From positions 62,001-126,000 of IMG/VR virus record IMGVR_UViG_3300044733_004704: DNA of 64,000 nt; one strand, 5' to 3'. This document shows positions 2,790 to 64,000 of this stretch, piece after piece. Position 1 is the first letter of the stretch. The number at the start of each line of letters is the position of its first letter. The notes under the pieces are model-generated. The model was not told where the DNA came from. It searched no databases and was given only the letters and a program-made list of their open reading frames with translations. Both the position numbers and the translations under genes were made by a program. The stretch is from a virus.

Positions 2790-2803
2790 AATAAAATTCC
2801 AGG

Positions 2804-4081: not shown

Positions 4082-4110
4082 GTTAATATTTCTTATAAGT
4101 GTTTACGGAA

Positions 4111-34763: not shown

Positions 34764-34786
34764 TGTATTATATTTCTTTGAAAGGA

Positions 34787-35785
34787 TTAAATATTACTAT
34801 CATATGTTATAACTAGTTTCCAAGAATCAATATTTCCACTACTAGTTGGATCAGTATCTTTTATAATAAGATTCCATACACCGGTTACAGAACTATTAAA
34901 TAAATGATCAAAATTACTATTTAGAGATTCATTATTATAGTTAACAATGGATGTTTTATCATAAATTCTACAAGTTTGACCATTAGATATATTATGTAAA
35001 TATTTATTACTATCAGCTTTGTTACTAAACATAAAACTAAAATTATTGGAATAATTCGGTATTTTGTGATTAGCAGATAGTAGTATTTTATCTCCGCTTG
35101 GTGGAGACAACAACAAAACCAAGTCTGTTACGTTGGAGTGATTTAGTTTGTTAATAGCCAGTTCTATATTAGATATGATTCCTGTATTCGTAACATTAAC
35201 AGAACCGCTTGTTGTAGACAAATCATTAATAGTTAAACCACTGCCATTATAAACTACAGAAAATAGATCTAGTGGACCACAATCATATGGTAAACAAAAA
35301 TCTGTTTGTTCTGTAACAGTTGGTGTTGGTGTTGGTATATTGCTGCCTGTGGTTGTTGGTAAATTGGTTGTTTGTACAACCAAAGGATCCAAACTAATTG
35401 CACAATTAGGATCAATAGTTAAATTTCTATCTATTAGATTGATACTTCCTTGAGACAATCTAACATTATTAAGTTTAATGGTTCCGACATTTTTAACATC
35501 AAGATCATAAACCGCTGTTAAAAAATTAAAAGATTTTGTATGATCCGCACTAAATTTTATTACTATAGTTCCGAGATTATCTCCTGTTATGCTCCATCCA
35601 TCAACATCATAATTAGCTAATGCTTGACTAGAATATTTTCTAATAGATCCGTCGTCGCCTAGTATGCCAAATTCGACACACTTATTACTAAGATTTATCG
35701 GGTCGCCGGAACTGTTATTATATACAAAATTAATCTGAAAATCAGATCCTTTTTCTATTGGAAAATTATAATTAACAGCTACCAT
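34787..35785 (-). CDS. Surface protein with C-terminal proprotein-convertase P-type domain
   Basis: 332 residues. Residues 1-125 form a beta domain ([13 protein letters not shown]...YDLDV) that is paralogous to the whole 134-residue protein at 44831. A short PTPTPTVT linker follows. Residues ~175-330 match the P/Homo-B domain pattern: [21 protein letters not shown], LLSPPSG, F near residue 255, VWNLIIKD and GNIDSWKL. P domains are jelly-roll modules found next to proteases and on surface proteins. No protease accompanies it here, so it probably serves as a decoration or binding module. Confidence 0.72.
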
Positions 35786-35797
35786 AGAATTATTCCA

Positions 35798-36316
35798 TTA
35801 ACTATAAAGGTCTCTAGCATGATCACCAGGATATCGTAAATAACTCGGATCAAAATTATTACCAACAAACGGACTAAGAATACCCCGTAGTAAGCTAGTA
35901 TTACCTATTTCATAATCAAGTTTTAGATCCTCATACATTTTACAAGGACCATTAACTAAAAGAAATTGATAAGAGCTATTTCCACCAACACTAATATTAG
36001 CTGGTCCTAAAGCGGCTCTGATACCCTCTGTAGCGGCCCGTGTGCGTAAACTACTTTGATCTAAAAAGCAAGACGATTTTAATGCTATAAAACTAATAAA
36101 ATCTACATCTTTATTTTCTAAAAGAGTAGGATCAGGAATTATATCAGGATTGATAATATTAATACTATATTCGTTATTTAAATTAACTTCTCTTGTAACG
36201 TATTGAGCCGCTACAACTATTAGTTGCTGGATTCTTTCGTCACTATATGTTGGATTATCACTAAGATCATTAATTAAACTACGAACTATAATTGGTATTT
36301 CTAGCTGCCAGCTCAT
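35798..36316 (-). CDS. Head-tail connector/adaptor protein
   Basis: 172 residues. The mainly helical N-terminus (SLINDLSDNPTYSDERIQQLIVVAAQYV) with later DFISFIALKSSCF resembles gp6-type head-tail adaptors and connector proteins of cyanophages that I recall. The start is preceded by AGGGGA 6 nt upstream. A RGTGTATW motif lies 30 nt before the ATG. The gene stands between the capsid/fibre genes and the neck operon, which suits a portal-bound adaptor. The exact family is not certain. Confidence 0.6.
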   Translation of the reverse strand: MSWQLEIPIIVRSLINDLSDNPTYSDERIQQLIVVAAQYVTREVNLNNEYSINIINPDIIPDPTLLENKDVDFISFIALKSSCFLDQSSLRTRAATEGIRAALGPANISVGGNSSYQFLLVNGPCKMYEDLKLDYEIGNTSLLRGILSPFVGNNFDPSYLRYPGDHARDLYS

Positions 36317-36346
36317 AGGGTATCCCCTGAAGGTTAGTATTTAACT

Positions 36347-36354
36347 TATACACC
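36347..36354 (-). promoter_or_regulatory. Late promoter-type motif before connector gene
   Basis: Minus strand reads GGTGTATAAGTTAAAT in a 69-nt gap, 30 nt before the ATG at 36316. Confidence 0.55.
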
Positions 36355-36385
36355 ATTTTATAGGTAGCAACTAGCTTAATACGCT

Positions 36386-36571
36386 TCAGGTCGGAGCTGG
36401 TGAATTTGATCCAACTTTATTATTTTGTTCAGTTAAATTCTTGCTTATAGAACTTAGTTTCTCATAAAGTTGACCAATAGCTACCAAATCTTGGGCCTTA
36501 AAAACGCCTCTTTGAGTAGCAAGATCAATAACCACCATAAGATTCTGAATATCACCTTGATTTAATTCCAT
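36386..36571 (-). CDS. Small helical virion-associated protein
   Basis: 61 residues: two helices (GDIQNLMVVIDLATQRGVF, then QDLVAIGQLYEKLSSI) and a Ser/Pro tail. I recall short cyanophage virion proteins with the same 'Q-x-D-I-Q...DxAxQRGxF...E/D-L-x-x-V/I-GxLYxKL' pattern, annotated only as structural. It is spaced 11 nt from the preceding gene. Probable minor structural protein. Confidence 0.6.
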   Translation of the reverse strand: MELNQGDIQNLMVVIDLATQRGVFKAQDLVAIGQLYEKLSSISKNLTEQNNKVGSNSPAPT

Positions 36572-36582
36572 AATTTTTCCCC

Positions 36583-36906
36583 TTATTCTGGACTGTTAAT
36601 TGGAGCAATAACACCCTGTTCTGCTCCTGCTTTTCCTATATATAATAGTAATGATTGCACTATATTTGCAAGGTCACTATCTTCTACGCTTTTGCTTAAT
36701 AAATTATCAATAACTAACCAAGTTCCGTTATCTCCCGGCATATATTCTGCCACACCATCAAATACTCCAAATTTTTTCAAACGAACTCTAGCAGTAGCCT
36801 CACCGCCCAAAGTTCCCGCACTAATAATTATTTCTTCAACCCATAATTTATCATATGTTTTTGCTGGAACTGTGGATACTATTGCTGGACTTAAAACTGG
36901 TAACAT
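36583..36906 (-). CDS. Small structural protein, unknown
   Basis: 107 residues of beta-type sequence with EEIIISAGTLGGEATARVRLKKF and YMPGDNGTWLVIDNL segments, then a helical C-terminus. It starts 1 nt after the stop of the large S74 fibre (36908) and is followed closely by the 61-residue gene, so it is cotranscribed with the fibre genes. It may be a fibre-attachment or capsid protein. No family recognised. Confidence 0.55.
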   Translation of the reverse strand: MLPVLSPAIVSTVPAKTYDKLWVEEIIISAGTLGGEATARVRLKKFGVFDGVAEYMPGDNGTWLVIDNLLSKSVEDSDLANIVQSLLLYIGKAGAEQGVIAPINSPE

Positions 36907-36907
36907 A

Positions 36908-39900
36908 TTAATTTCCTTCTAGTATGGATAAACGATCTTTTAAATTATTAATTATAATTTGTTGATCTTGTATAGCTTTAATTAAAAGAGCAACCATATT
37001 ACCATAATGTATGGAATCTGGTCTATTTTCATTATCATATTGTACAAATTCTGTTAATCCTATTTTATCTACTTCTTCAGCAATTAAACCACCAAATATT
37101 TTATTACCATCATTATAGCTTTTAAATATTACGCTTTTTAATTGTAAAACTTCATTTAGTCCATGAGTGGCATCATTTACATCGGTTTTATATCTTAATG
37201 ATGATGTTGATCTATATAAAAATCCATCGCTACCAACCACCATATTAGCAGCAGTGGCGGTTGTATTATTGTATGGAGAAACCGCTGCTGTACCAGTATT
37301 TATGGCCCCATCATCTCTGGTATATAAAAGAGCTGCTCCACTACTATTCGAAATATAAAAAGAAACTGTTGAACTAGTAGCTCCAGATCCTCTTACCTCA
37401 AAACGATATGTTGGCGATACACCAATGCCAGTATTACCACCAAAATAATTTTTACCAGTATGTTCTACATATATACCCCACCTATTGGTAACTGTAGCAC
37501 CAGAACTAGCATCACTACAATAAATATCGAAAGCATTTGTTATTGTTCCAGCGGCTCTCCATAGTATATGTTGTATTCCAATTGCTGTTGTAGTTACTGG
37601 AGAAACAGCAGAAGTATTATAATGACCATATTGATTATATATACCATATAATGTACTTAATGTGCCAATATCATTAGTTAATGCATAATTACGTAGATTA
37701 TTATTAGCTATACCAATACTACTACCACTATTTGTTATTCCAGAATTAATCTTAAAATATGTATTTATAGCTACATTTCTGATAGCATAATTACCATTAG
37801 TTGTAGCATAACTATATGTGGCGCTTGATAGATTATCTCCAGTATTGGTATTGGTAAAATCTTTTATAGCTACTAAAGATGGATTTGTAGTATACGAATC
37901 TGTTCTTGTTCCACCCCCAATAACTAATTTATAATCATTAGAAGGAGATGCTCCTAGTCCAGTATTACCGCCACTTTGTACTGTTAGTAATGTGCTGTCA
38001 CCAGCTCCATAACCACTATTTTCTATTAATTTTAGAGATCTTGTCCCACTTGAAGCATCGTTTTGCCATGCAAAGCCACCCTTTCCATTAACATCAATTT
38101 GAATAGCGGCTTTGCCAGTACCTCCACTAGTTGTTTGTAAACCTTGTGTTGTTATCAGTCCGTCGCTAGCTGTTGTATAGGATAATATACGACCTCTAAT
38201 ATCAACTTTAAATCCACTACTGACTGAATTTGTTCCTATTCCAACATTTCCAGACGCATCGATACGTAATCTTTCAGTATCATTTGTCCAAAAAACAAGA
38301 GGAATATTTGCTCTTTGACGAATGTGCGATGCTATTGTTCCACCATATATCTCTAAATCGCAGGCAGCGCTAGCTTGTGATAATATACGAAGTCCGGGAG
38401 CATTAGCATTAGAAATAACGATACCGCCATTCGGATTTGCAAAAGATGGACTATTAGTTCCTATTCCAACATTTCCACTGGAATCAATTCGCATAGCTTC
38501 TTGAAATCCAGCCCTCATGAATCTAATAGCACCAGTAGTATTACTACCACCAAGACCAACAACCATATTACTACCATCAATTAACTCAAGAACTCTAGTT
38601 TCATTATTACATTGATCAATTAAAGTGGCATTGTTTTGAGCGTCATCATGAAGTATTATTTCTCCACCATTTTCGTTATAGTTAAATCTATGAGAAATTG
38701 ACCCACTGTTTAGTTTAAAATCAATATTATTACTTGCTGTGATTCTAATCTTTTCTGTAGCAGCACTATTAGATCCGCTAGTAACAAATATTGTCATTCC
38801 ATCAAAATAATCAGCATTAATACGCCCCATTTCTACATTAGATCTTCTAAAACTGATTCCAGCACCATTAGAAAATCCACCACTAACTTCAGCAATAATG
38901 ACCTGTTCTTCTGATGTTGTTGTATTCAACACATGCAAATGAGATGAAGGGCTACTTGTTCCTATGCCAACATTTCCATCACTAGTTATTCTCATTCTTT
39001 CTATTGGAGTACTAGTATTTGCTCCACCACTAGTAGTACGAAATACTAATGACGCATTAAAACTAGGAACATCTATTGCTAATATATCAGCACCCCAACC
39101 AGTAGTATAAATATTATGTTTAAATCTAATTCCAGCGAATGATTGACTTGTTCCAACAGTGCCGTCTAATAGTAAAGTGGCTTTTTCAGAATTTGATGTT
39201 GCGCTTGAAAATACAGAAAGAGGAAGAGTTGGACTACTAGTTCCTATCCCAACATTTCCAGAACTATCAATAACAAATGGCGAAGTATCACCAGTAACAT
39301 CATTAACAACAAAACAGTTTCCAGTACCATCATGAGTAATAGTAAGAGGTACATTTGTGCCGCTAGAACTAATTGTAACACCAGTTGAGAAAACTGTAGC
39401 GGCGGTAAATGTTTTAGCTCCGCTAATAGTTTGAACGCCAGTTGTTCGCACAACCGTACTATCAACAGCTATACTATCCGCACTAACACTTATTCCATCG
39501 CCCTGACCGATATGTATTGTTCTGTTCGCAACAAGGCTTCCACCACCAGCCAAACCACTTCCTGCCGTAATTGTTATCCCATCCCAAGCAGCTTCTATGG
39601 CCCCTCTAGCAGCTGATAGAGACTCTCCTTCTGGATGTAATGCGTAGAAAAAATAATTCAACAAATATCCGTCCAATGAATAGTACTCACCACCCAAATT
39701 AAAATATATCTGAGACGTATAATGCGTATGAGTATTTAATTGTGTTTGTATAGAGCTTGCTACTCCTTTAACATAACTCAATTCTGTAAGTGAAGGATAA
39801 GTACTAGTACTAAGAGAAACAACATTTTTATTAGCATCAAAACTTGCTACTCTACTAGCTGTTTGATTAGATATAGCTAATCCACTAGCGAAATTTCCAC

Positions 39901-40138
39901 TACCAGTTACATTTAATAAGCTTCCATCAAAAGATAAATTACTTTCAGCATTAATTCCAACCGTCGAGCCGGTGCTAGTGAGTATTCTATTATCACCACT
40001 ATTAGCAATGGTCGGCAGTAATCCACTAACACTACTATTAAAATTACTATTATTAATATTTAAAGTAGTAAAATATCCACTAACTGCTGTTATTGTTCCA
40101 CTAGTAGTTAAATCATGATCATTAAAATTAATACTCAT
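36908..40138 (-). CDS. Tail/side fibre with C-terminal S74 self-cleaving chaperone domain
   Basis: 1076 residues. The shaft contains many 'D/S-x-S-GNVGIGT-x-S-P/V' repeats typical of phage fibre shafts. The last ~100 residues match the intramolecular chaperone (Peptidase S74) family: SSLRYKTDV with a Ser-x4-Lys pair, NEVLQLKSVIFK, GGLIAEEVDKIG and a C-terminal coiled coil (IKAIQDQQIIINNLKDRLS). Such domains trimerise the fibre and then cut themselves off. The N-terminus (INFNDHDLTTSGTITAVSGYF) resembles that of neighbouring fibres. Likely a trimeric receptor-binding or head fibre. Confidence 0.88.
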   Translation of the reverse strand: MSINFNDHDLTTSGTITAVSGYFTTLNINNSNFNSSVSGLLPTIANSGDNRILTSTGSTVGINAESNLSFDGSLLNVTGSGNFASGLAISNQTASRVASFDANKNVVSLSTSTYPSLTELSYVKGVASSIQTQLNTHTHYTSQIYFNLGGEYYSLDGYLLNYFFYALHPEGESLSAARGAIEAAWDGITITAGSGLAGGGSLVANRTIHIGQGDGISVSADSIAVDSTVVRTTGVQTISGAKTFTAATVFSTGVTISSSGTNVPLTITHDGTGNCFVVNDVTGDTSPFVIDSSGNVGIGTSSPTLPLSVFSSATSNSEKATLLLDGTVGTSQSFAGIRFKHNIYTTGWGADILAIDVPSFNASLVFRTTSGGANTSTPIERMRITSDGNVGIGTSSPSSHLHVLNTTTSEEQVIIAEVSGGFSNGAGISFRRSNVEMGRINADYFDGMTIFVTSGSNSAATEKIRITASNNIDFKLNSGSISHRFNYNENGGEIILHDDAQNNATLIDQCNNETRVLELIDGSNMVVGLGGSNTTGAIRFMRAGFQEAMRIDSSGNVGIGTNSPSFANPNGGIVISNANAPGLRILSQASAACDLEIYGGTIASHIRQRANIPLVFWTNDTERLRIDASGNVGIGTNSVSSGFKVDIRGRILSYTTASDGLITTQGLQTTSGGTGKAAIQIDVNGKGGFAWQNDASSGTRSLKLIENSGYGAGDSTLLTVQSGGNTGLGASPSNDYKLVIGGGTRTDSYTTNPSLVAIKDFTNTNTGDNLSSATYSYATTNGNYAIRNVAINTYFKINSGITNSGSSIGIANNNLRNYALTNDIGTLSTLYGIYNQYGHYNTSAVSPVTTTAIGIQHILWRAAGTITNAFDIYCSDASSGATVTNRWGIYVEHTGKNYFGGNTGIGVSPTYRFEVRGSGATSSTVSFYISNSSGAALLYTRDDGAINTGTAAVSPYNNTTATAANMVVGSDGFLYRSTSSLRYKTDVNDATHGLNEVLQLKSVIFKSYNDGNKIFGGLIAEEVDKIGLTEFVQYDNENRPDSIHYGNMVALLIKAIQDQQIIINNLKDRLSILEGN

Positions 40139-40149
40139 AAATATCTCTG

Positions 40150-42924
40150 TTATGGAATAAAGTTATATTTTTGTCCACCCATATAAGGTGGAGTAACTGT
40201 TGGTGTGGGCGTTGGTGTTTTTGTTACAGTATTTGTGACCGTTGGTGTTGTTGTAGGAGTTATAGTTGGTGTGGTTGTGACAGAAGGAGTGGGAGTTGGA
40301 CTGGAAGCCACTCCACTATAAATTGTTTGAACCAAATCTACTCCTGCTGTCCAAAGAATATTATTACTATTTAATCCATTAACATTAATATCTAAGCTAT
40401 ATGTTCCGGTATTGGCCACAACAGTTGCTGTTACTCCATTAAGACTGCTATCAATAAAGTTTTCTTCTATAAGTGATCCAACCAATGATGTTGTTGAGCT
40501 ATTTCTTTTAATACACCCTCTAAAATTCCAACTAGCAGCACCCTCATTGGTACTACTAAAACAATTTAAATTAATACTAAAATTCCATACGCTATTTGAT
40601 GATAATACTAATTTAGAACTTACTCCATCGGTATATAGAGTTGTTGAACTATTATCTGATGTGCTATTTCTAACAGTAAGCGAGCTTTTTTGAGAATCAC
40701 CAGTAATATTAAAATAGCCATTACTCAATCCTAAGTTTCCGTACGGATCGGTTGTGCCAATTCCTAATTTATTTCCACTAGATAAAAATATTAATCCGCT
40801 TTCGGCATCTATTCCTGTGCTACTTCCATCACTAGTTAGTAATCTATTATCAGAGTAATTATTTATTGATACTCCACCAGCCGATCCAGTATATGCTATA
40901 TTGATTATATTACTACTATCATTATAACTAATATTAATTCCACTAATTCCAACTAGTAAATCATTTACTCTATCATCAACAGCCTCATCCCAGTTAGTAA
41001 TATCGCTATTTGTATGAGTGTGACCACTTAAACTTACGCCAGTACCATTAACTTGTAAACTTTGAGTAAAATTACCGCTAGGAGCGCTAATACTTCCAGT
41101 AAAAGTTGCTCCACTCAGACTTGCTTTACCAGCTAAAGTATTTGTAATCGTTGTGCTAAAATTAGCATCGTTTCCTAGCGCTGCTGCTAACTCATTCAAA
41201 GTATCCAGGGTAGATGGCGCAGAATTTACAAGATTACTAATTTCTGTTCTTACAAATGAGGTACTAGCTATTTGATTAGTATTTGTACCACTAGTTGCTG
41301 TTGGAACTAATGGAACTCCTGTAAAAGTTGGACTATTATTAAATACTAATAATCCAGAACCAGTCTCATCGGATATTACTGAACTTAATTGAGACGATGT
41401 AGTATTTGCAAATTGATTTAATGTTCCTGTTAACGGAGCATATATACCATTAACCAAACCACTAACAGATGAGTTAAAATTAGTTATATCACTAGAACTA
41501 TGAGTATGACCACTAAGACTAACTCCAATATTATTAACGGCTAGATTTGTAAAATTTCCACTAGTAGAATTTATTAGCCCATTAGACGTAAGTCCATTAA
41601 CAAAATTATGAATTGCATTAACTGTTCTATTATTATCCACATGTAAATATTGAGAGTGATCATCATCACCTAGCCCGAACAAACTTCCGTGATCATTCTG
41701 AGTAACTCCAGCAATAGTGCTAATTACGGCTACTCGTATATCAAGAATACTAAGTAAAGTACATTTGGGAACATTTGTATAATCACTGTCACCAGCAAAT
41801 ATTAATCGATAAAGAGGTTTAACTTCGCTTAATGGAAGATTAGTAAGATTAACATCACTCCAAGAGTTATTGCTCTCAGCCGATCCTTGATTGCTATCAA
41901 TTCTTTGACCCATAATACTAATTATAGGATCATCAATCTGATTAGTTGCAAGAATCCATGCTGCAAAGTATCTTGTTTGTCCACCGGGACTAACATCGGG
42001 AATTGTCCAATTGCCACCAGTTAATAAGTTATATTGTGGTCCATTAGCGCCATATTTAACAGGATAGTCTGTTGCGGTATTCTTAACCCACTGACCAGTA
42101 GTTCCTTGGTGATAATAAACGGGAATTTGAGCAATCGGACTTAACTCTTGACAGAACGGATCAGTACTAGAACTATCAGTAATATTTATTTCAATATCTT
42201 CTTGATAAAGAGTACCGTTGCCAATTGATATGGTTGCATGACTATTGCTAGACCCATCTCCGCCTAAAACATAATTACCAATGCTCAAACCGTCAACATA
42301 TTGTGCGCCAAAAGTATAATGAATCCACTTGTGGGTGCTAGTGTCCATCACAATACCATGACGTTCTTCAGCAAAGAAAGTCATTTGTCCACTAGGACCA
42401 ACTCCACTATTCCAAGCCACATATGCGATAGGAATATCAGTAGAAAAATCAAAGCTTGTAGTTTTATTTGATATTTGATTATTAATAGTGTCAAAATGAA
42501 TATAATTAATTTGGGTAAGATTTGGTATAGTTAAACTATCACCACTAGTTTTAACAACTTTAATACCCTTATTATAATAACTATATGAACTTCCTGTGGG
42601 TTCTATTGTAAATATGTTTCCACTAACACTAATTCTACTATCAGTTCTATTAACAAATCCTTGAGGTTGTTGACTGTCAACATGGACTAAGTTTGTAGAA
42701 GCAACGGTATAAATACCACTATTATTAGTTATAGATATATCATATCCAGCCGCTATATTCTGATTGACTCCACTAAGCTGTGTCCAAACCGAAATACCAT
42801 CACCTATCTTAAAGATTTTATTAGTTAAATCATATCCTGGTTCACCGCTAGCTAATACTGGATTAGCACTACTCCATTCTGTACTGGAGCCTTTTCTGAA
42901 TAGAATATAATCATTTACTGGCAT
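40150..42924 (-). CDS. Fibre protein with Mtd-N-type start and PT-rich tail
   Basis: 924 residues. Residues ~8-50 (LFRKGSSTEWSSANPVLASGE, then KIFKIGDGISVW) match the N-terminal domain type of Mtd-like fibres. The middle has repeated 'LxVNxxGVSLSGHTHSSSDITN' shaft units. The last ~50 residues are a Pro/Thr-rich tail like the stalk in the propeller protein at 33438, ending in MGGQKYNF. It lies 11 nt before the S74 fibre. Probably a structural fibre whose PT tail links to another module. Confidence 0.75.
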   Translation of the reverse strand: MPVNDYILFRKGSSTEWSSANPVLASGEPGYDLTNKIFKIGDGISVWTQLSGVNQNIAAGYDISITNNSGIYTVASTNLVHVDSQQPQGFVNRTDSRISVSGNIFTIEPTGSSYSYYNKGIKVVKTSGDSLTIPNLTQINYIHFDTINNQISNKTTSFDFSTDIPIAYVAWNSGVGPSGQMTFFAEERHGIVMDTSTHKWIHYTFGAQYVDGLSIGNYVLGGDGSSNSHATISIGNGTLYQEDIEINITDSSSTDPFCQELSPIAQIPVYYHQGTTGQWVKNTATDYPVKYGANGPQYNLLTGGNWTIPDVSPGGQTRYFAAWILATNQIDDPIISIMGQRIDSNQGSAESNNSWSDVNLTNLPLSEVKPLYRLIFAGDSDYTNVPKCTLLSILDIRVAVISTIAGVTQNDHGSLFGLGDDDHSQYLHVDNNRTVNAIHNFVNGLTSNGLINSTSGNFTNLAVNNIGVSLSGHTHSSSDITNFNSSVSGLVNGIYAPLTGTLNQFANTTSSQLSSVISDETGSGLLVFNNSPTFTGVPLVPTATSGTNTNQIASTSFVRTEISNLVNSAPSTLDTLNELAAALGNDANFSTTITNTLAGKASLSGATFTGSISAPSGNFTQSLQVNGTGVSLSGHTHTNSDITNWDEAVDDRVNDLLVGISGINISYNDSSNIINIAYTGSAGGVSINNYSDNRLLTSDGSSTGIDAESGLIFLSSGNKLGIGTTDPYGNLGLSNGYFNITGDSQKSSLTVRNSTSDNSSTTLYTDGVSSKLVLSSNSVWNFSINLNCFSSTNEGAASWNFRGCIKRNSSTTSLVGSLIEENFIDSSLNGVTATVVANTGTYSLDINVNGLNSNNILWTAGVDLVQTIYSGVASSPTPTPSVTTTPTITPTTTPTVTNTVTKTPTPTPTVTPPYMGGQKYNFIP

Positions 42925-56840: not shown

Positions 56841-57663
56841 TGTGATTTTCCATAAATTCTGGTGTTAGTAATGGTACGTCCACAGTGTCGTCTTGATAAG
56901 TGTGATATTGTTGCATTCTTTCTTTGGCTCCGATTGCTGCCATTCCAAGAATTTCCATTTCTTTGCCTTCTTTTTCTCTTACTATTTCGTCTTCTAGCAT
57001 TCGTATTAAACCAACCCAACTACTTTTACCATCTTCTATTCTTTTTATTCTTTGTTCCCTAGTAGCTTTAAGATCTTTGCTAATTTTTTGTTGTTCGTTA
57101 AGAAGTTTGGTATATTCATTAGTGTAATTAGCGATACTGTTGCGGGCAAACGACAATTGAGTTTCGAGATTAGCCAATTTCGGTATATCTCTTTGATCCT
57201 CACTTTTTTCATACTCTTTGTCCACAAGCTTCTGTAATTTTTCAGTTTCGCTAATGTGTCTTTTTCGTTCTTTCATGCTGCGATTAATTAATATATCAAT
57301 AGTGATAAATTGTTTAATTTGCAACTCTTCTGCTGGTAAAACATCTTCTCTAAACTGTTTTATTAGTCCAACCCAGGTATCTTCAAAGTATTGGAGTTCG
57401 CCGCTGTCCGCATCAAATTGACGTGTAATTTCTACCCAAAAGGTTTTGCTATGTAATTTATCTTTTAGAGTTTCATAAGCCGCTTTGTCTTCTGGATCAA
57501 TTAGTAAATTATTTTCATTAATATATCGCTTAATTGGTCCTTCGTGACGATTAAGATTAGAGGCTATAGCATCTATGCTTAATAAATTAACATTCTCACG
57601 AATATAAGCTTCTTCATCTAAACTTAGTTGTCCTCGTTTTTTGGGAATTCTGCTGTTTTCCAA
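56833..57663 (-). CDS. HTH plus coiled-coil protein, candidate small terminase
   Basis: 276 residues from a TTG start at 57663, chosen because GGAGG lies 7 nt upstream and no other start precedes the conserved part. Residues ~15-50 form an HTH-like domain (EEAYIRENVNLLSIDAIASNLNRHEG style pattern, here in residues ~17-42); residues ~130-230 form a long coiled coil. HTH followed by a coiled-coil oligomerisation region is the plan of small terminase subunits, none of which is otherwise seen here. The ends overlap both neighbours (8 and 40 nt). The terminase assignment is inference. Confidence 0.55.
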   Translation of the reverse strand: MENSRIPKKRGQLSLDEEAYIRENVNLLSIDAIASNLNRHEGPIKRYINENNLLIDPEDKAAYETLKDKLHSKTFWVEITRQFDADSGELQYFEDTWVGLIKQFREDVLPAEELQIKQFITIDILINRSMKERKRHISETEKLQKLVDKEYEKSEDQRDIPKLANLETQLSFARNSIANYTNEYTKLLNEQQKISKDLKATREQRIKRIEDGKSSWVGLIRMLEDEIVREKEGKEMEILGMAAIGAKERMQQYHTYQDDTVDVPLLTPEFMENHNE

Positions 57664-58265
57664 TTGTGTTCCTCCATTATTTCCATAATATGTTTTTTAA
57701 GCTTGTTAAGATCGGACTTGTTAATTTTTTGATTGTGTTTTAGTTTTAGATAACTTTCTCTATATTCTGAGCGGATATTTTTGTCAAGAAAATTAACCAT
57801 CTCGTTGTGCTCGTGAGAACCATTAGGTGACGATGCTAAATTTAAGTCTTCAAAATAAGATGGTTTAGCAATATTCTTTTTAGCATCATTTCGTTTGGCC
57901 CACGAAGCGTATGGTTCGCATTCCTTTTTGTCAATAAATTTAGAGCACTGATTGTTAGAAACTTTATAAGTAGCATCGTATAGTGGACACGTTAAACAAG
58001 GCTTGTCGGGTCTTTGGTAGTTGTTTCTCTTGTAGTTAAATAATCGATTTCGCACATGAGTCCACAAAAAGTTTTCAAGGGGCCTTTTGTGATCATAATT
58101 TTTTAATCCTTCTAGTGCAAATATGGCCGCTTGTTGTTTCATATCCTCTATGCTATGATAGCCGAATTTAAATTTGTGAGCTAATCTTTTAGTAATTTTG
58201 TCTAAAACGGCTAAAAATTCGTCGTCACTCACCGCTTTGATGGTTTGATTTGTTTTTTTCTTCAT
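57624..58265 (-). CDS. gp55-like late RNA polymerase sigma factor
   Basis: 213 residues. Residues ~28-85 are a sigma region 2-like helix set (RLAHKFKFGYHSIEDMKQQ, FALEGLKNYDHKR, FLWTHVRNRLFNYKR) as in T4 gp55 and cyanophage late sigma factors. A cysteine cluster C90, C93, C107, C116 follows, probably a zinc knuckle. The C-terminus is helical and lysine-rich. It probably directs host polymerase to the RGTGTATW late promoters. The ATG overlaps the upstream gene by 41 nt; a GTG at V12 would reduce this to 8 nt, so the start is uncertain. Confidence 0.72.
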   Translation of the reverse strand: MKKKTNQTIKAVSDDEFLAVLDKITKRLAHKFKFGYHSIEDMKQQAAIFALEGLKNYDHKRPLENFLWTHVRNRLFNYKRNNYQRPDKPCLTCPLYDATYKVSNNQCSKFIDKKECEPYASWAKRNDAKKNIAKPSYFEDLNLASSPNGSHEHNEMVNFLDKNIRSEYRESYLKLKHNQKINKSDLNKLKKHIMEIMEEHNWKTAEFPKNEDN

Positions 58266-58491: not shown

Positions 58492-58728
58492 ATGAGCTAC
58501 AGAAAATGGGGTCAGGTTGAATTGGATTTTATCCGTGATAATTTTAATGTTATTTCCGATGATGAGATTGCTGTACGATTGAGTCAAATAACAAATAGCA
58601 GTATTACTACTCCTATGGTGCGACGACAAAGGCGCAAGCTTGGTATTCAAAAGCCACGAGGTCGTCAACCAAAGAACAAAAACGCCTCAATGCCCGCATC
58701 GTTTGCATCATCAAATGATAATGGTTGA
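58492..58728 (+). CDS. Small HTH DNA-binding protein
   Basis: 78 residues from ATG 58492 with GGGGAGA 6 nt upstream (longer reading to 58447 lacks an SD). The W-x-x-E-x-x-FI-x-x-N start, SDDEIAVRL helix and VRRQRRKLGI recognition-type helix followed by a basic KPRGRQPK tail look like a compact Myb/HTH repressor. The N-terminal pattern recalls the HTH of the 276-residue protein at 56833. Ends in a Ser/Asn-rich tail and is followed by a strong terminator. Probably a transcription regulator at this divergent promoter. Confidence 0.6.
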   Translation: MSYRKWGQVELDFIRDNFNVISDDEIAVRLSQITNSSITTPMVRRQRRKLGIQKPRGRQPKNKNASMPASFASSNDNG

Positions 58729-60818: not shown

Positions 60819-60970
60819 TATAAAATTTATTATTAGTAAATAGGATGATCATTATAGTTTAGGTAAGACATTTATGTTGGTTTTGGCTTACTATGTTTAG
60901 ACCACCGCCGGTTTTCTGCAAAATCTGTGCCAAACCAAAAGAAAATGAAAAAACCCCCCTACTGAGCGGG
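60819..60970. other. Gene-free boundary between late/middle and cassette regions
   Basis: About 150 nt without a gene, the left part of a 338-nt gene-free stretch up to the leader at 61157. Base composition switches from AT-rich to GC-richer around 60.95 kb. A minus-strand hairpin-like CCC...GGG (60953-60972) followed by a T6 run could terminate leftward transcription; weak. Confidence 0.4.
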
Positions 60971-60974
60971 TGAC

Positions 60975-61015
60975 GCAAAATGCTGTGCAAAATGCTACAG
61001 TGTGACGCAAAATGC
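60975..61015 (+). repeat. Three GCAAAATGC iterons, module 1
   Basis: GCAAAATGC at 60975, 60987 and 61007; two of them sit in TGACGCAAAATGCTACAG. The arms GCA/TGC are palindromic around AAA, so each could be a protein-binding half or full site. The same array precedes module 2. Confidence 0.75.
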
Positions 61016-61035
61016 TACAGTGATCCTTACCCCCG

Positions 61036-61048
61036 TCTCAAATTGAGA
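61036..61048. promoter_or_regulatory. Palindromic operator-like site, module 1
   Basis: TCTCAAATTGAGA inside a longer conserved CCCCCGTCTCAAA(T/A)TGAGAATG block, 21 nt after the third iteron and 58 nt before the TGGCA box, exactly as in module 2. Confidence 0.65.
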
Positions 61049-61105
61049 ATGCTGTAACCCTATATTTTTCAAGGGGTTATGGAAAATCGTATTTTTTTTC
61101 TCGAA

Positions 61106-61121
61106 TGGCACGACATTCGCA
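61106..61121 (+). promoter_or_regulatory. Module 1 promoter, sigma-54-like -24/-12
   Basis: TGGCACGACATTCGCA: GG and GC separated by 10 nt as in sigma-54 sites; one mismatch in the TTGC part. Followed by TATATG, so a sigma-70 reading is also possible. 36 nt before the first cassette ATG. Confidence 0.4.
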
Positions 61122-61156
61122 TATATGTATGGCAACAAAGAAAGAGAGAAAGAAAA

Positions 61157-61387
61157 ATGGAAAACCTTATCGTCCTCAACACCGTTTCTGAACTTCGTGA
61201 TCTGATCAATACCACGACGATGACCACGTTTGTTGGTCGCGTTGCTTTTGCAATGGATCTTCTGGAAAGTGTTCGCCAGAATGACAACATGATCGAAATC
61301 AATCATGAGTTGGGATTCTGCGATGATGGTGGATTCATCCAGATTGATGAGATGGGTTATGTGGTCGATGATTATGCGATCCAGTGA
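61157..61387 (+). CDS. Cassette protein 1a (76 aa)
   Basis: 76 residues from ATG 61157, chosen because it follows the conserved polypurine leader AAAGAAAGAGAGAAAG; a longer reading to 61079 would run through the promoter. Helical first half (TVSELRDLINTT, FAMDLLESVRQ), acidic beta-type second half ending VVDDYAIQ. Codons favour CTG, CGT, GTT and ATC, unlike the structural genes. First gene of module 1. No family recognised; a small early protein acting on the host is likely from context. Confidence 0.65.
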   Translation: MENLIVLNTVSELRDLINTTTMTTFVGRVAFAMDLLESVRQNDNMIEINHELGFCDDGGFIQIDEMGYVVDDYAIQ

Positions 61388-61389
61388 TT

Positions 61390-61431
61390 CCCTATAAGGG
61401 GGGTTGTGGCGGAAGAAAAGTTTGGTAGAAT
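61390..61431 (+). repeat. Stem-loop plus promoter unit 1 (PeSL-like)
   Basis: Hairpin CCCtataaGGG (61390-61400) directly after the stop of 1a, then TTGTGG (61404-61409), 16-bp spacer ending AAAGTTTGG, and TAGAAT (61426-61431). Same arrangement at 62350 and 63443. Confidence 0.75.
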
Positions 61432-61454
61432 CCTAGAAAGAAAGAGAGAAAAAG

Positions 61455-61640
61455 ATGGTTTACAATGTTGGTGATAGGTTGAGTGTGGTCTATAGCACTG
61501 GCGAATCGTTCACTGGTGAACTGGTTAGCGTTCGTGAGATTCCGAACAAGGGAACGTTGATTCTGGTCAACGATGATACGGTGGGCTATCGGTCCATGTA
61601 TGCCGACAAGGTTGTGAGCGTGATCGTGGAGAATGTTTGA
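61455..61640 (+). CDS. Cassette protein 1b, small beta-barrel-like (61 aa)
   Basis: 61 residues, nearly all beta strands (VGDRLSVVYSTGESFTGELVSVREI, GTLILVND, KVVSVIVENV), suggesting an SH3- or Tudor-like mini-barrel. Leader AGAAAGAAAGAGAG just before the ATG. Its TGA is followed without gap by the ATG of 1c (TGAATG), so the two are translated together. Function unknown. Confidence 0.65.
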   Translation: MVYNVGDRLSVVYSTGESFTGELVSVREIPNKGTLILVNDDTVGYRSMYADKVVSVIVENV

Positions 61641-61847
61641 ATGGATACTAACTACTTTCAATCATCGTTCGAGAGTATGGAAACGAGTACCATACGATTG
61701 TGGCTCCACGAAGCCCAAGTACGACTGCCCCATGAGAGCGGTAGCGTTCGTGAAATACTGAAAGAAGGTATACGTGCGTCTGCTCGTGAACTGTTGTTCA
61801 GGTATCGAGAGGATATGAAAAGAATCTTTTCAAAAAACTCGACGTAA
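61641..61847 (+). CDS. Cassette protein 1c, helical basic (68 aa)
   Basis: 68 residues, helical and basic (LHEAQVRLPHESGSVREILKEGIRASARELLFRYREDMKRI). It starts directly after the stop of 1b. Its last codons and stop (TCG ACG TAA) are already part of the ~95-bp repeated element, so element and gene end are fused here. Function unknown. Confidence 0.6.
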   Translation: MDTNYFQSSFESMETSTIRLWLHEAQVRLPHESGSVREILKEGIRASARELLFRYREDMKRIFSKNST

Positions 61848-61932
61848 ACCCTTGATATGTAAGGACTTACGGCGAAATTGGGCCGCCATTTTTGACGTAA
61901 CTCCTTATGGTTCAAGCACTTACGGCGACCCC
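61838..61932 (+). repeat. Structured ~95-bp module-end element, copy 1
   Basis: Begins CTCGACGTAAA/C and ends ACTTACGGCGA. Contains GTAAGGACTTA in the middle of the first half, a central GC block and a second GACGTAA...CTTACG half. Near-identical in layout to copies at 63043 and 63809. Confidence 0.85.
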
Positions 61933-61944
61933 AAAGGTAGTGTA

Positions 61945-61985
61945 GCAAAATGCTGTAGCAAAATGCGTCACCTGTAGCAAAATGC
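61945..61985 (+). repeat. Three GCAAAATGC iterons, module 2
   Basis: GCAAAATGC at 61945, 61958 and 61977; flanks CTGTAGC...GCGTCA are the mirror of the module 1 flanks around the same core. Confidence 0.75.
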
Positions 61986-62005
61986 CTCACCTTGGCACAC
62001 CCCCG

Positions 62006-62018
62006 TCTCAAAATGAGA
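62006..62018. promoter_or_regulatory. Palindromic operator-like site, module 2
   Basis: TCTCAAAATGAGA, same block and same spacings (21 nt to last iteron, 58 nt to TGGCA box) as module 1. Confidence 0.65.
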
Positions 62019-62075
62019 ATGATGTAAAGTATTGTGGCGTAATGACTTAGGAAGAAAAAAAGATTTTTTGGTGAA

Positions 62076-62091
62076 TGGCATGGGAAGTGCA
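62076..62091 (+). promoter_or_regulatory. Module 2 promoter, sigma-54-like spacing
   Basis: TGGCATGGGAAGTGCA: GG and GC 10 nt apart; preceded by GAA as in module 1 (GAATGGCA) and followed by TATATAG. Shared GAATGGCA-N8-GCAT layout defines the promoter whichever sigma reads it. Confidence 0.4.
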
Positions 62092-62125
62092 TTATATAGA
62101 GACAAGAAAGAAAGAGAGAAAGAGA

Positions 62126-62344
62126 ATGAGAATGAGTCGTTATAGTTCAGCCCTTCGGTCCTATCGTGATGAGCGGTCTAACCGCCATCGTCATGTTCGT
62201 ACTAACCTGTGGATCGTTTACCAGAATGGTAAGCGTATCGGCAAGGTTGGTGGAATCAGTGAGGGTGAAGCCCTTGCAAAGATTCCGCAGTCCTATAAGG
62301 ACAACGGTCCTATCGAACTGGAAAGGGTCGTGATCGAAGAGTGA
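62126..62344 (+). CDS. Cassette protein 2a, basic (72 aa)
   Basis: 72 residues (or 70 from the second ATG at 62132) after the leader AGAAAGAAAGAGAGAAAGAG. Very basic N-terminus (RYSSALRSYRDERSNRHRHVR), then a beta strand NLWIVYQNGKRIGKVGG and an acidic end ERVVIEE. Might bind nucleic acid or a host protein. Optimised CGT/ATC/GGT codons. First gene of module 2; function unknown. Confidence 0.65.
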   Translation: MRMSRYSSALRSYRDERSNRHRHVRTNLWIVYQNGKRIGKVGGISEGEALAKIPQSYKDNGPIELERVVIEE

Positions 62345-62349
62345 TCCTT

Positions 62350-62391
62350 CCCCACAAGGGGGGTTGTGGTGGCGGAAAAGTTTGGTAGACT
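62350..62391 (+). repeat. Stem-loop plus promoter unit 2 (PeSL-like)
   Basis: Hairpin CCCCacaaGGGG (62350-62361), TTGTGG (62364-62369), 16-bp spacer with AAAAGTTTGG, TAGACT (62386-62391). Begins 6 nt after the stop of 2a. Confidence 0.75.
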
Positions 62392-62416
62392 CACAGAATC
62401 ACTAGGAGAAAAAGAG

Positions 62417-62734
62417 ATGGAAAAGTTTCGAATCGTTGAAGAATACAAGCGTACAGTTCGTGGTATCTTCTATGGTATGGCGATCCCTTGCGAAAAGCGT
62501 ACCGCTGATGGTGGTATGATTACCAGTGAGAAGGTATTGAAGTTCAATCGTTCAGCATTGCGAAAGATTGGCAAGCGTAGGATCGAAAAGGTTGATCCTC
62601 GCATAGTAGGTGGCGAGGATCGTATGCGTTTCCCCGTTGGCAAGCCCGGTTCCCCCGAAAGACTGGTTGCTCTTGCAGAGCAGTATGCTAGTTTAGCAGA
62701 TGACGAGATGAGTCCCTTTATTGGAGATGAGTGA
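62417..62734 (+). CDS. Cassette protein 2b (105 aa)
   Basis: 105 residues from ATG 62417 with AGGAGA 8 nt upstream; a longer reading to 62366 would include the promoter. Basic centre (RSALRKIGKRRIEKVDPRIVGG), then RMRFPVGKPGSPERLVALAEQYA and an acidic end. The largest of the cassette genes. No recognised domain. Confidence 0.65.
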   Translation: MEKFRIVEEYKRTVRGIFYGMAIPCEKRTADGGMITSEKVLKFNRSALRKIGKRRIEKVDPRIVGGEDRMRFPVGKPGSPERLVALAEQYASLADDEMSPFIGDE

Positions 62735-62738
62735 GTAT

Positions 62739-62813
62739 ATGTTCACTGCGCTTTTGTTCACCCTGTCATACGTTGGCTTTCTGTATTGTATGCTAACTGC
62801 GGAAAAATCTTGA
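62739..62813 (+). CDS. Cassette peptide 2c, 24-aa membrane peptide
   Basis: Short gene ATG 62739 to TGA 62811-62813, 4 nt after the stop of 2b. The product is almost entirely hydrophobic (MFTALLFTLSYVGFLYCMLT) with AEKS at the end: a single membrane-spanning segment. GGAG of the 2b end lies upstream. A second tiny membrane peptide occurs in module 3. Short; codon evidence is limited. Confidence 0.45.
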   Translation: MFTALLFTLSYVGFLYCMLTAEKS

Positions 62814-62844
62814 TCTAAGCCCTTACCTTCTAGATGAGTGAAAC

Positions 62845-63033
62845 ATGACGATTCAGATGGCGGTGGAAAAGACGTTGCTTCGTTTGATTGCGGTTCATGG
62901 TCATTCGGCCATGTATGTATGCGACTTGGGCGGCGATGTTAGTTTGTACACTGTGGGTGGCGTTCACTATGCTATTCGTGATGATGGTACGGCCCACGCT
63001 ATTCACCCGGCCGAGGTATTTCCCACCCTGTAG
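62845..63033 (+). CDS. Cassette protein 2d (62 aa)
   Basis: 62 residues: helix AVEKTLLRLIAVHGH, then beta segments MYVCDLGGDVSLYTVGG and HYAIRDDGTAHAI. SD-like GAGTG precedes the ATG. The last gene of module 2, ten nt before the repeated end element. Function unknown. Confidence 0.6.
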   Translation: MTIQMAVEKTLLRLIAVHGHSAMYVCDLGGDVSLYTVGGVHYAIRDDGTAHAIHPAEVFPTL

Positions 63034-63042
63034 AGGGACGGA

Positions 63043-63137
63043 CTCGACGTAAAGTCTTGAGCCGTAAGGACTTATGGCGAAATCGGGCCCGTAATTTTGA
63101 CGTAAGTGCTTATGAGACAATGACTTACGACAAACTC
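63043..63137 (+). repeat. Structured ~95-bp module-end element, copy 2
   Basis: Second half can fold as CGTAAGT...ACTTACG (7 bp), first half as AAGTC...GACTT; centre CGGGCCCG. Follows the stop of 2d by 9 nt. Confidence 0.85.
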
Positions 63138-63151
63138 TATACCATGATTTT

Positions 63152-63167
63152 TGGCATGAAAATTGCT
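63152..63167 (+). promoter_or_regulatory. Sigma-54-like site in module 3 upstream region
   Basis: TGGCATGAAAATTGCT fits the sigma-54 pattern TGGCAY-R-N4-TTGCW completely. It lies 141 nt before the 3a ATG, further than in modules 1 and 2. Confidence 0.4.
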
Positions 63168-63249
63168 CTAGCATATGGTGTGCCAATATGGAAGAAAATT
63201 ATGAAAAGTTTTGTCAAAATCTCTTGACACAAAAATTTCCAGATTTTTC

Positions 63250-63277
63250 TTGCACCCTAAAGAATCCATGGTATAAT
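63250..63277 (+). promoter_or_regulatory. Module 3 sigma-70-type promoter
   Basis: TTGCAC, 16-bp spacer, TATAAT; 31 nt before the ATG at 63309, with the polypurine leader in between. Confidence 0.8.
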
Positions 63278-63308
63278 GTCGATATAAGAGAAAGAAAGAG
63301 AGAAAGAA

Positions 63309-63452
63309 ATGAGCAAGATTGAAGTTTACTATTCCGATTGCTGTGGTGTTGAGATTGTTGGTGATATCGCTGGTCTCGAATTGTGTCCCCGATGCTGGGA
63401 ACACTGTGACTGCGTTATCGAGGAAATCGACGATCCATCATGCCCCGCCTAA
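63309..63452 (+). CDS. Cassette protein 3a, cysteine-rich mini zinc finger (47 aa)
   Basis: 47 residues from ATG 63309 after GAAAGAAAGAGAGAAAG. Cysteines in SDCCGVE and in LCPRCWEHCDC give two C-x2-C-type pairs suited to one zinc ion; a further Cys near the end (SCPA). The TAA stop lies inside the loop of the next stem-loop. First gene of module 3; likely a small protein-binding zinc finger, role unknown. Confidence 0.62.
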   Translation: MSKIEVYYSDCCGVEIVGDIAGLELCPRCWEHCDCVIEEIDDPSCPA

Positions 63453-63486
63453 TGGGGGTTGATGCGGCGACAAAGTTTGGTAGGAT
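63443..63486 (+). repeat. Stem-loop plus promoter unit 3 (PeSL-like)
   Basis: Hairpin CCCCgcctaatGGGG (63443-63457), TTGATG (63459-63464), 16-bp spacer ending AAAGTTTGG, TAGGAT (63481-63486). Confidence 0.72.
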
Positions 63487-63508
63487 TATAGAAAAGAAAA
63501 GGAAAGAG

Positions 63509-63607
63509 ATGTACAAGGATTTTCTTAGCAATCTGATTGTTTGTTTTCTGCTGTTTTGTTGGGCATATTTGTTCGTTCTGGTTCCCGCGTACTTTTTCTT
63601 TGGATAA
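63509..63607 (+). CDS. Cassette peptide 3b, 32-aa membrane peptide
   Basis: 32 residues from ATG 63509 (leader AGAAAAGAAAAGGAAAGAG) to TAA 63605-63607. After MYKDFLSN the sequence is a continuous hydrophobic span with Trp, Cys and Phe, ending FFFG: one membrane helix. The good leader and promoter position support translation. It may act on the host membrane. Confidence 0.55.
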   Translation: MYKDFLSNLIVCFLLFCWAYLFVLVPAYFFFG

Positions 63608-63613
63608 AATAAT

Positions 63614-63802
63614 ATGAATAGCCTCGATAAAATTCTGTCTGCTATGCGAACTGGCAAGTATGGTAGCGTGGTGGATACTAAGGGTAAGATTCATGTTGGC
63701 ATTATCAATTCACTATTGCGTGAAGATGGCAGTAATAAAAATTGGATTGTAACGGTGAGCAACCGTACAGTTACTGAACAAGTGTTCATTCATGCTAGTT
63801 AG
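63614..63802 (+). CDS. Cassette protein 3c (62 aa)
   Basis: 62 residues: helix SLDKILSAMRTGKYGS, then beta strands VVDTKGKIHVGIINSLL and NWIVTVSNRTVTEQVF. The pattern resembles the small barrel of 1b. It starts 6 nt after the stop of 3b with only GGATAA upstream. Last gene of module 3. Function unknown. Confidence 0.6.
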   Translation: MNSLDKILSAMRTGKYGSVVDTKGKIHVGIINSLLREDGSNKNWIVTVSNRTVTEQVFIHAS

Positions 63803-63808
63803 GATTGT

Positions 63809-63903
63809 CTCGACGTAAAGTCTTGAACCGTAAGGACTTATGGCGAGGCCGGGCAGCCCCCGGCGACGTAACTCCATATGGGACAAGCACTTACGACGAG
63901 TAG
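63809..63903 (+). repeat. Structured ~95-bp module-end element, copy 3
   Basis: Same outer halves as copies 1 and 2; the centre here is a GC stem GCCGGG/CCCGGC. Follows the stop of 3c by 6 nt. Confidence 0.85.
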
Positions 63904-63954
63904 CAGAGCAAACGCTGTGCCGCAAAAAATAATCTTTTTTCTAAGATTTTCTGC

Positions 63955-63982
63955 TTGACAGTGCCGATGATTAGTGTAGAAT
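63955..63982 (+). promoter_or_regulatory. Promoter of a fourth module
   Basis: TTGACA, 16-bp spacer, TAGAAT, at the right edge, 52 nt after element copy 3. The gene it drives lies outside the window. Confidence 0.75.
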
Positions 63983-64000
63983 CCACGCATCACCCCAAGG

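Follow-up and report, generated by a model that had tools for sequence, protein, structure and literature searches.

The array and its layout

The window analysed here is a 64,000-nucleotide stretch (positions 62001-126000) of a 131,022-bp viral record of the IMG/VR database, IMGVR_UViG_3300044733_004704, and its right end carries an array in which repeated promoters, GA-rich leaders and a dyad-rich element of about 93 bp stand between tiny genes. An earlier note on this DNA had described three consecutive modules of about 1 kb and the start of a fourth, with ten cargo open reading frames (ORFs) of 76, 61, 68, 72, 105, 24, 62, 47, 32 and 62 amino acids (aa); all of them were confirmed at the same positions, and the encoded proteins fall in different sequence families, in agreement with its view that the cargo is unrelated across modules. 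The regulatory repeats were recovered as well, namely an element of about 88-93 bp at 61837, 63042 and 63808 (later copies 80% and 76% identical to the first), a stem-loop with promoter at 61388, 62348 and 63443 (79% and 65% identity) and a GA-rich leader at 61133, 61433, 62103 and 63287. The same order per module held for the repeats, but module 1 has no intact upstream element and keeps a relic of it at about 60950-60969; contig L014 matches the window contig at 98.7% identity as far as the relic and then has a full element in the place of about 10 nt. The promoter region thought to be common to the modules turned out to differ, as modules 1 and 2 carry TGGCAYG-N5-YGC (-24/-12-like), module 3 TTGCA...CTAAAG...TATAAT and module 4 TTGACA...CCGAT...TAGAAT. 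Three sigma70-like promoter classes were distinguished in the arrays: P1 (TTGACA..CCGATA..TAGAAT), P2 (TTGCA..CTAAAG..TATAAT) and P3 (..AAAGTTTGGTAGAAT, behind a small stem-loop). The features of the window array are listed below.

58492-58728, + strand: gene for a 78-aa three-helix helix-turn-helix (HTH; Myb/homeodomain-like) protein, candidate array regulator (conservation and AlphaFold2 (AF2) model; DNA binding putative)
60950-60969, + strand: relic of the first double-dyad element (AAACCCCCTA remnant; comparison with L014)
60971-61132, + strand: module 1 regulatory region, with GCAAAATGC repeats, CGTCTCAAATTGAGAA block and -24/-12-like TGGCACGACATTCGCA at 61106-61121
61133-61156, + strand: GA-rich leader of module 1 (repeat family D3)
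61157-61387, + strand: cargo gene 1, 76 aa, family 3 (18 matches in array segments)
61388-61455, + strand: stem-loop, P3-type promoter (61404-61431) and leader (repeat family D2; P3 motif AAAGTTTGGTAGAAT in relatives)
61455-61640, + strand: cargo gene 2, 61 aa, family 4
61641-61847, + strand: cargo gene 3, 68 aa, family 5
61837-61929, + strand: double-dyad element copy 1 (nhmmer, R1 model, alignment A1)
61940-62102, + strand: module 2 regulatory region, with GCAAAATGC repeats, CGTCTCAAAATGAGAA block and -24/-12-like TGGCATGGGAAGTGCA at 62076-62091
62103-62126, + strand: GA-rich leader of module 2; gene-replacement breakpoint against G015, L102 and L010
62126-62344, + strand: cargo gene 4, 72 aa; replaced in G015, L102 and L010, present in L014
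62348-62415, + strand: stem-loop and P3-type promoter (62364-62391)
62417-62734, + strand: cargo gene 5, 105 aa, of family 1, which has the widest distribution (44 matches)
62739-62813, + strand: cargo gene 6, 24 aa, found only here
62845-63033, + strand: cargo gene 7, 62 aa, family 7; its homologue neighbours the inserted gene in L069
63042-63134, + strand: double-dyad element copy 2 (nhmmer, R1 model)
63135-63286, + strand: module 3 regulatory region, with TTGGCATG-N4-TTGC forward at 63152-63167, an inverted copy near 63170 and a P2-type promoter at 63250-63279
63287-63310, + strand: GA-rich leader of module 3
63309-63452, + strand: cargo gene 8, 47 aa
63443-63510, + strand: stem-loop and P3-type promoter (63459-63486)
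63509-63607, + strand: cargo gene 9, 32 aa
63614-63802, + strand: cargo gene 10, 62 aa, family 13
63808-63900, + strand: double-dyad element copy 3 (nhmmer, R1 model)
63955-63982, + strand: P1-type promoter TTGACAGTGCCGATGATTAGTGTAGAAT of module 4, whose gene starts at contig position 126010, beyond the window

Counted to the right, as the earlier note had proposed, the array runs past the window to the contig end and holds seven copies of the element in 8.2 kb, four of them right of the window. The G+C content changes from about 33% to about 45% on entering it. The junction is not an assembly artefact, since the array side has 100% matches over 3,740 bp in L006 and L007, which are separate contigs. 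A terminase scan gave 80 relatives, the top ones 99-100% identical in terminase. Seven long relatives (G002, G003, G004, G005, G008, G009 and G014) have one array each, adjoining the terminase block, with 13-20 elements over 15-23 kb by the element model, a spacing of about 0.5-2.8 kb and nearly all copies in the same orientation. With a strict pattern, the element was found in at least 120 IMG/VR stretches, and its two exact matches in the window compare with 0.00 expected from 100 shuffles. The same pattern hit six small contigs of mixed taxa among bacterial metagenome-assembled genomes, and the element as a host operator is disfavoured by this count against the viral one; with their mixed taxa, the six contigs did not identify a host.

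The isolate-phage collection gave neither a DNA match nor an element match. The terminase has only distant counterparts in isolate phages, below 60% identity, the listed matches lying at 22.8-31.4% (Microcystis MaeS, Bacillus Slash/Staley types), and no T4-like phage was among the organism names counted for the terminase matches. The carrier of the array is a large, apparently lytic phage of a widespread uncultured family.

Gene exchange among near-identical relatives

The clearest view of how the array changes came from relatives that are otherwise almost the same. Contigs L067 and L069 share 99.9% identity over 17,155 bp; beyond this, L069 has an extra promoter and an 82-aa gene (318 bp). 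At this place L067 has a chimeric promoter, which corresponds on its left to the first L069 promoter and on its right to the second, and a further promoter within the near-identical DNA differs in its -35/spacer sequence. Compared with the window's phage (G000), its sisters G015 and L102 lack the module that lies between elements 4 and 5, and the element remaining in G015 is a base-level hybrid, element 4 on its left and element 5 on its right. The module 2 gene of G000 is replaced in the sisters from the leader to the next promoter, and single genes are present or absent at start-site repeats in the sister arrays. The 47-aa gene 8, with a protein 98-100% identical, stands behind P2 in G000 and G015, behind P3 in L010 and behind a -24/-12-like motif in L102, and gene 1 likewise has three promoter types upstream across relatives. 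On these alignments, near-identical phages have swapped, gained or lost tiny genes at the repeats. The gain, loss and exchange at repeated parts that the earlier note had proposed is thus seen directly, but the unit exchanged is usually smaller than its module of about 1 kb.

Eleven pairs gave 122 event edges, of which 72 lay in promoters or leaders, 29 in other intergenic DNA, 12 in the element and 9 within genes, genes making up 48-65% of the array length. Within non-coding DNA the promoter/leader edges exceeded expectation from lengths (72 against about 55); the 93-bp element was not a preferred breakpoint, since its 12 edges were not above its length share. Several junctions carried direct repeats of roughly 13-73 bp together with chimeric promoters or elements. 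These data have to be set against a simpler account, in which regulatory duplications and the usual turnover of accessory genes are all that is needed, only harmless breakpoints survive and the repeats give no help. The low share of edges in the element and the placing of most edges where any recombination would be harmless agree with it, and in T4 recombination at 6-10-bp microhomologies suffices for change without cassettes (PMC9391042). Selection explains the avoidance of genes, but not by itself the promoter/leader bias within non-coding DNA, and the junction repeats with their chimeras and the near-identical protein behind three promoter types also speak against that account, which we consider unlikely.

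An integron-like system was also considered, in which the element is the site and a dedicated recombinase moves the cassettes, as an array of small-gene cassettes and a dyad-rich repeat of attC-like length might suggest. Searches of ten long contigs found no match to Phage_integrase (PF00589), and hence no tyrosine integrase, or to Resolvase, while the PF00589 control was found in 14 of 14 cases, and site-specific recombination was rejected on this result. Furthermore, the crossovers are scattered over promoters and leaders and do not favour the elements, the best-resolved event (L067/L069) crosses within a promoter, and pairing in the element equals the shuffled expectation, unlike the pairing constraint of a folded attC. 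Such a system is extremely improbable here. A RecA-like protein is encoded in nine of the ten long contigs, and this together with the lack of integrase and resolvase makes recombination between repeated regulatory sequences the likely route, with a parallel in T4, for which short homologies are enough (PMC9391042).

Gene content and order were compared in 17 arrays, whose 588 predicted genes fall into 251 families, 158 of them singletons. Left of a marker gene (family 14) 36% of shared neighbours are conserved and the order tau has a mean of 0.69; right of it the values are 68% and 0.87. Exchange along the array therefore needs qualification, the left 8 kb or so being strongly shuffled and the right half keeping a more conserved gene order. 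The gene order still varies among relatives and the repeats recur in many contigs, whereas the earlier idea would have suffered from a fixed order or from repeats confined to the three copies.

Taken together, we think it likely that this is a cassette array, in which units of promoter and leader serve as docking places for tiny accessory genes. Several points weigh against this reading. Breakpoints outside genes are also expected from selection against broken genes, the 122 edges are not 122 events because breakpoint pairs share ancestry, and each event may have been a gain or a loss. The right half of the array holds its gene order better, the gene calls in the arrays are heuristic, and all members are known from sequence alone.

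The 93-bp double-dyad element and the promoters

The element stands before most array promoters. The 73 aligned copies span 93 bp, apart from a single rare insertion and the loss of one base in a few copies. Each half has two AA-N4-TT half-sites 15 bp apart, which make one dyad, and a G+C-rich core is flanked by the two dyads at a distance of 53 bp from each other. Its inverted repeats and its position between the end of one unit and the next promoter would suit a terminator or an RNA hairpin that insulates the modules, a close analogue of the promoter-terminator cassettes discussed below. However, no pairing covariation was found across the dyads (72.8% paired against 72.2% in shuffled alignments), RNAalifold predicted no structure for the alignment, and terminator-like sites in the array were at the chance level (6 against 6.5 in shuffled sequence), even though the P3 unit has a C4/G4 stem-loop directly upstream of its promoter. 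The covariation test and the terminator scan led us to reject the hairpin or terminator reading, to which we leave a small chance. The letters of the element are conserved and the pairing is not, which favours a double-stranded protein-binding site over a hairpin, and the element looks like a four-half-site double-dyad site for a protein.

The distance from the element end to the promoter points to a regulatory site, and its helical phasing is nothing that a terminator would need. The distances peak at 14, 24-25, 35-36, 47-49, 58 and 79 bp and are helically phased (R=0.68 at 11 bp for the 64 distances of at most 70 bp). The phasing was replicated in held-out contigs (R=0.59 at 10.5 bp, 104 non-redundant linkers) with a similar phase and a strong class at 45-47 bp, and the control, the distance from promoter to ATG, had no period (R 0.07-0.13). 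Thirty-four clusters of P1 linkers at 75% identity were still phased (0 of 5,000 randomisations). Two results lessen the weight of this: P1 linkers merged at 65% identity into nine clusters were not significantly phased (p=0.19), so common descent may explain some part of the phasing, and P2 promoters appear less phased. From the linker lengths, the period of about 10.5-11 bp suggests an upstream regulatory site acting in helical phase.

Thirteen to twenty dyad-rich copies in one region would also fit iterons or a packaging zone, and the element could then be a replication, packaging or partition site that lies between modules by chance. The copies are nearly all co-oriented, most are followed by a helically phased promoter 13-60 bp downstream, and they are spread over 15-23 kb and not clustered; we hold this explanation to be very improbable.

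The promoters themselves are concentrated in the arrays. On the sense strand, 11-28 were found per array of at least 7 kb and 4 in the two shortest stretches, against 0.15-2.1 in shuffles; the opposite strand of the arrays had 0-3, and 60.8 kb of structural genes had 9 on both strands together. The motif TTGGCAY-N5-TTGC resembles the -24/-12 consensus of sigma54 promoters (GG-N10-GC). It occurs 11 times on one strand and 18 on the other in the arrays, against 0.1 per strand expected, and 0 times in the 60.8 kb of structural genes; a looser form, TGGCAYR-N5-YGCW, occurs 43 times forward and 64 times reverse in held-out arrays, against 0.6 per strand expected. Some copies lie 26-38 nt before an ATG and replace P1 or P2, as in modules 1 and 2 of the window, and others adjoin the element, pointing either way and often paired as inverted copies (e.g. 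window 63152-63185). By their arrangement, the copies next to the element look more like an operator. No phage Sigma54_DBD match was found in the searched contigs, and the Sigma54_activat matches were marginal only; sigma54 and an enhancer-binding protein could both come from the host. A protein with a weak match to sigma70 region 2 is encoded at window 57624-58265 and might be a phage sigma factor that serves other classes of genes.

A candidate regulator and a possible mechanism

The HTH protein gene at 58492-58728 lies between the structural genes and the array and points into the array. Its homologues are on the + strand, 2.4-4.1 kb upstream of the terminase, in almost all relatives whose flank is long enough, and none was found in isolate phages. 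The residues RRQR are invariant across the homologues, the G017 homologue has a Pfam AT_hook match, and several relatives have an AT-hook-like tail. The AF2 model has a predicted local distance difference test (pLDDT) score above 90 over three helices, and a structure search found no PDB entry at a significant level (best E about 1), so the assignment was kept to a three-helix HTH shape. From its position beside the array and its presence in nearly all relatives, this protein is the leading candidate for a factor that would bind the element.

The cassette array could work as follows. The repeats would recombine, by homologous or short-homology recombination, through the RecA-like protein of the phage or that of the host, during mixed infection or replication. 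The element would be bound at its four half-sites by a protein, probably phage-encoded and probably dimeric, which would work from the same helix face on the RNA polymerase of the neighbouring promoter, and a gene landing in the array would thereby fall under common control. The array units would be expressed early, and the cargo may aid host takeover or counter-defence; the labels "early" and "host-takeover" of the earlier note would apply by analogy with PeSL-type systems and archaeal viruses, which are compared below. A more ambitious version is possible, although we regard it as doubtful: a docking regulon in which one phage DNA-binding protein, the candidate HTH/AT-hook protein, would sit on the phased four-site element at about 15-20 promoters, any recombined gene would join the same early programme, and some slots of the hypervariable half would use host sigma54-type promoters, tying the cargo to host physiology.

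Comparison with known systems

How large phages gain and trade tiny anti-host genes is an open question, and the promoter-early stem-loop (PeSL) cassettes are, to our knowledge, the main described route for such trade. They are reportedly the work of Arbiol et al. in 2010 and Comeau et al. in 2014 on T4-like phages, and they are the closest known system to the array, which works like them. Both have composite promoter units, early in PeSLs and putatively early here, repeated between tiny genes of mostly unassigned function in a hyperplastic region, and PeSL copies recombine and shuffle genes among close relatives (PMC4503421), which is the same shuffling found here. Sigma70-like promoters repeated between small genes are also shared, in our case by promoter sequence only, and the stem-loop with P3 within each module is the nearest match to a PeSL. 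The differences are that our array belongs to an unrelated phage lineage that has no isolate and is not T4-like by terminase, adds a 93-bp double-dyad element that has no hairpin or terminator signature, combines at least three promoter classes per array with helical phasing between element and promoter, and places 13-20 serial units in one location beside the terminase block. The array was not classed as PeSL because the phage is not T4-like by terminase and the main element has no terminator stem-loop.

Stoperators are asymmetric 13-bp sites with the consensus GGTGGMTGTCAAG, and in this shape and in having no cassette array they differ from the element; the consensus had 0 matches here with up to two mismatches allowed. 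They resemble the element in the many copies of one binding site, here a putative one, in a phage genome, and PMC9283540 and PMC6550527 describe many copies of the repressor-binding site across the genomes of cluster A mycobacteriophages. Pope et al. (2011, PMC3203893) described start-associated sequences (SAS) and extended SAS (ESAS) in cluster K mycobacteriophages, repeats that lie where small genes from many families begin, some half of them with an upstream imperfect 17-bp inverted repeat (ESAS); the sites follow genes across genomes, and their function is unproven. The SAS overlaps the ribosome-binding site, and gene shuffling at ESAS is not claimed (PMC3203893). The ESAS is a single 17-bp dyad, whereas our element has two dyads of AA-N4-TT half-sites 53 bp apart upstream of a separate promoter, and the 13-bp SAS consensus GGGATAGGAGCCC had 0 matches here with up to two mismatches allowed.

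In archaeal viruses, Bhoobalan-Chitty et al. (2024) used conserved early regulatory sequences to find anti-defence genes, and PMC11065993 describes a highly conserved early promoter module that stands before numerous small, dissimilar genes, with Aca8 as the proposed viral HTH regulator. The promoters there are of the TATA/BRE kind, and in the passages compared there is neither a four-site phased element nor a demonstration of cassette exchange. The parallel supports an anti-defence role of our cargo by analogy only.

A second, unrelated and widespread phage group shows the PeSL principle here, its architecture being larger and better ordered, and exchange could be observed between contigs as close as 99.9% identity. 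Its conserved element can serve as a search key, the pool of 251 families is a place where anti-defence or host-inhibiting genes can be sought, and the phased double-dyad element gives a testable prediction on the co-regulation of such arrays.

Cargo domains and other observations

Pfam and PHROGs searches on the cargo were mostly empty, nearly all families being without known function. The few scanned families with domains gave DUF932, GP88/DUF7227, a phosphoribosyltransferase-like domain, HU and an L7/L12-like stretch. The HU-type DNA-binding protein is among the cargo of the L018 (three copies) and G002 arrays, and the stretch resembling the L7/L12 C-terminal domain, just under the Pfam cut-off, is in a family 23 gene of G003 (L086:13016-13396). 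In five relatives (L086, L088, L092, L093 and L094) the array region contains 7-11 tRNA genes per stretch, mostly in the conserved right half.

Right of the window, about 800 nt (L004:7880-8690, contig 129879-130689) directly behind a strong P1 promoter have no convincing ORF and hold repeated ACAATACAA separators. This stretch had no Rfam or tRNA match and folds weakly (z-score -1.56); about 280 nt of it are missing in G015 and about 145 nt in L102. Long structural-looking proteins are encoded at window 858-5307 and 33438-42924 and at L005:2507-6625, some of them with Thr/Pro repeats that come from many degenerate direct repeats.

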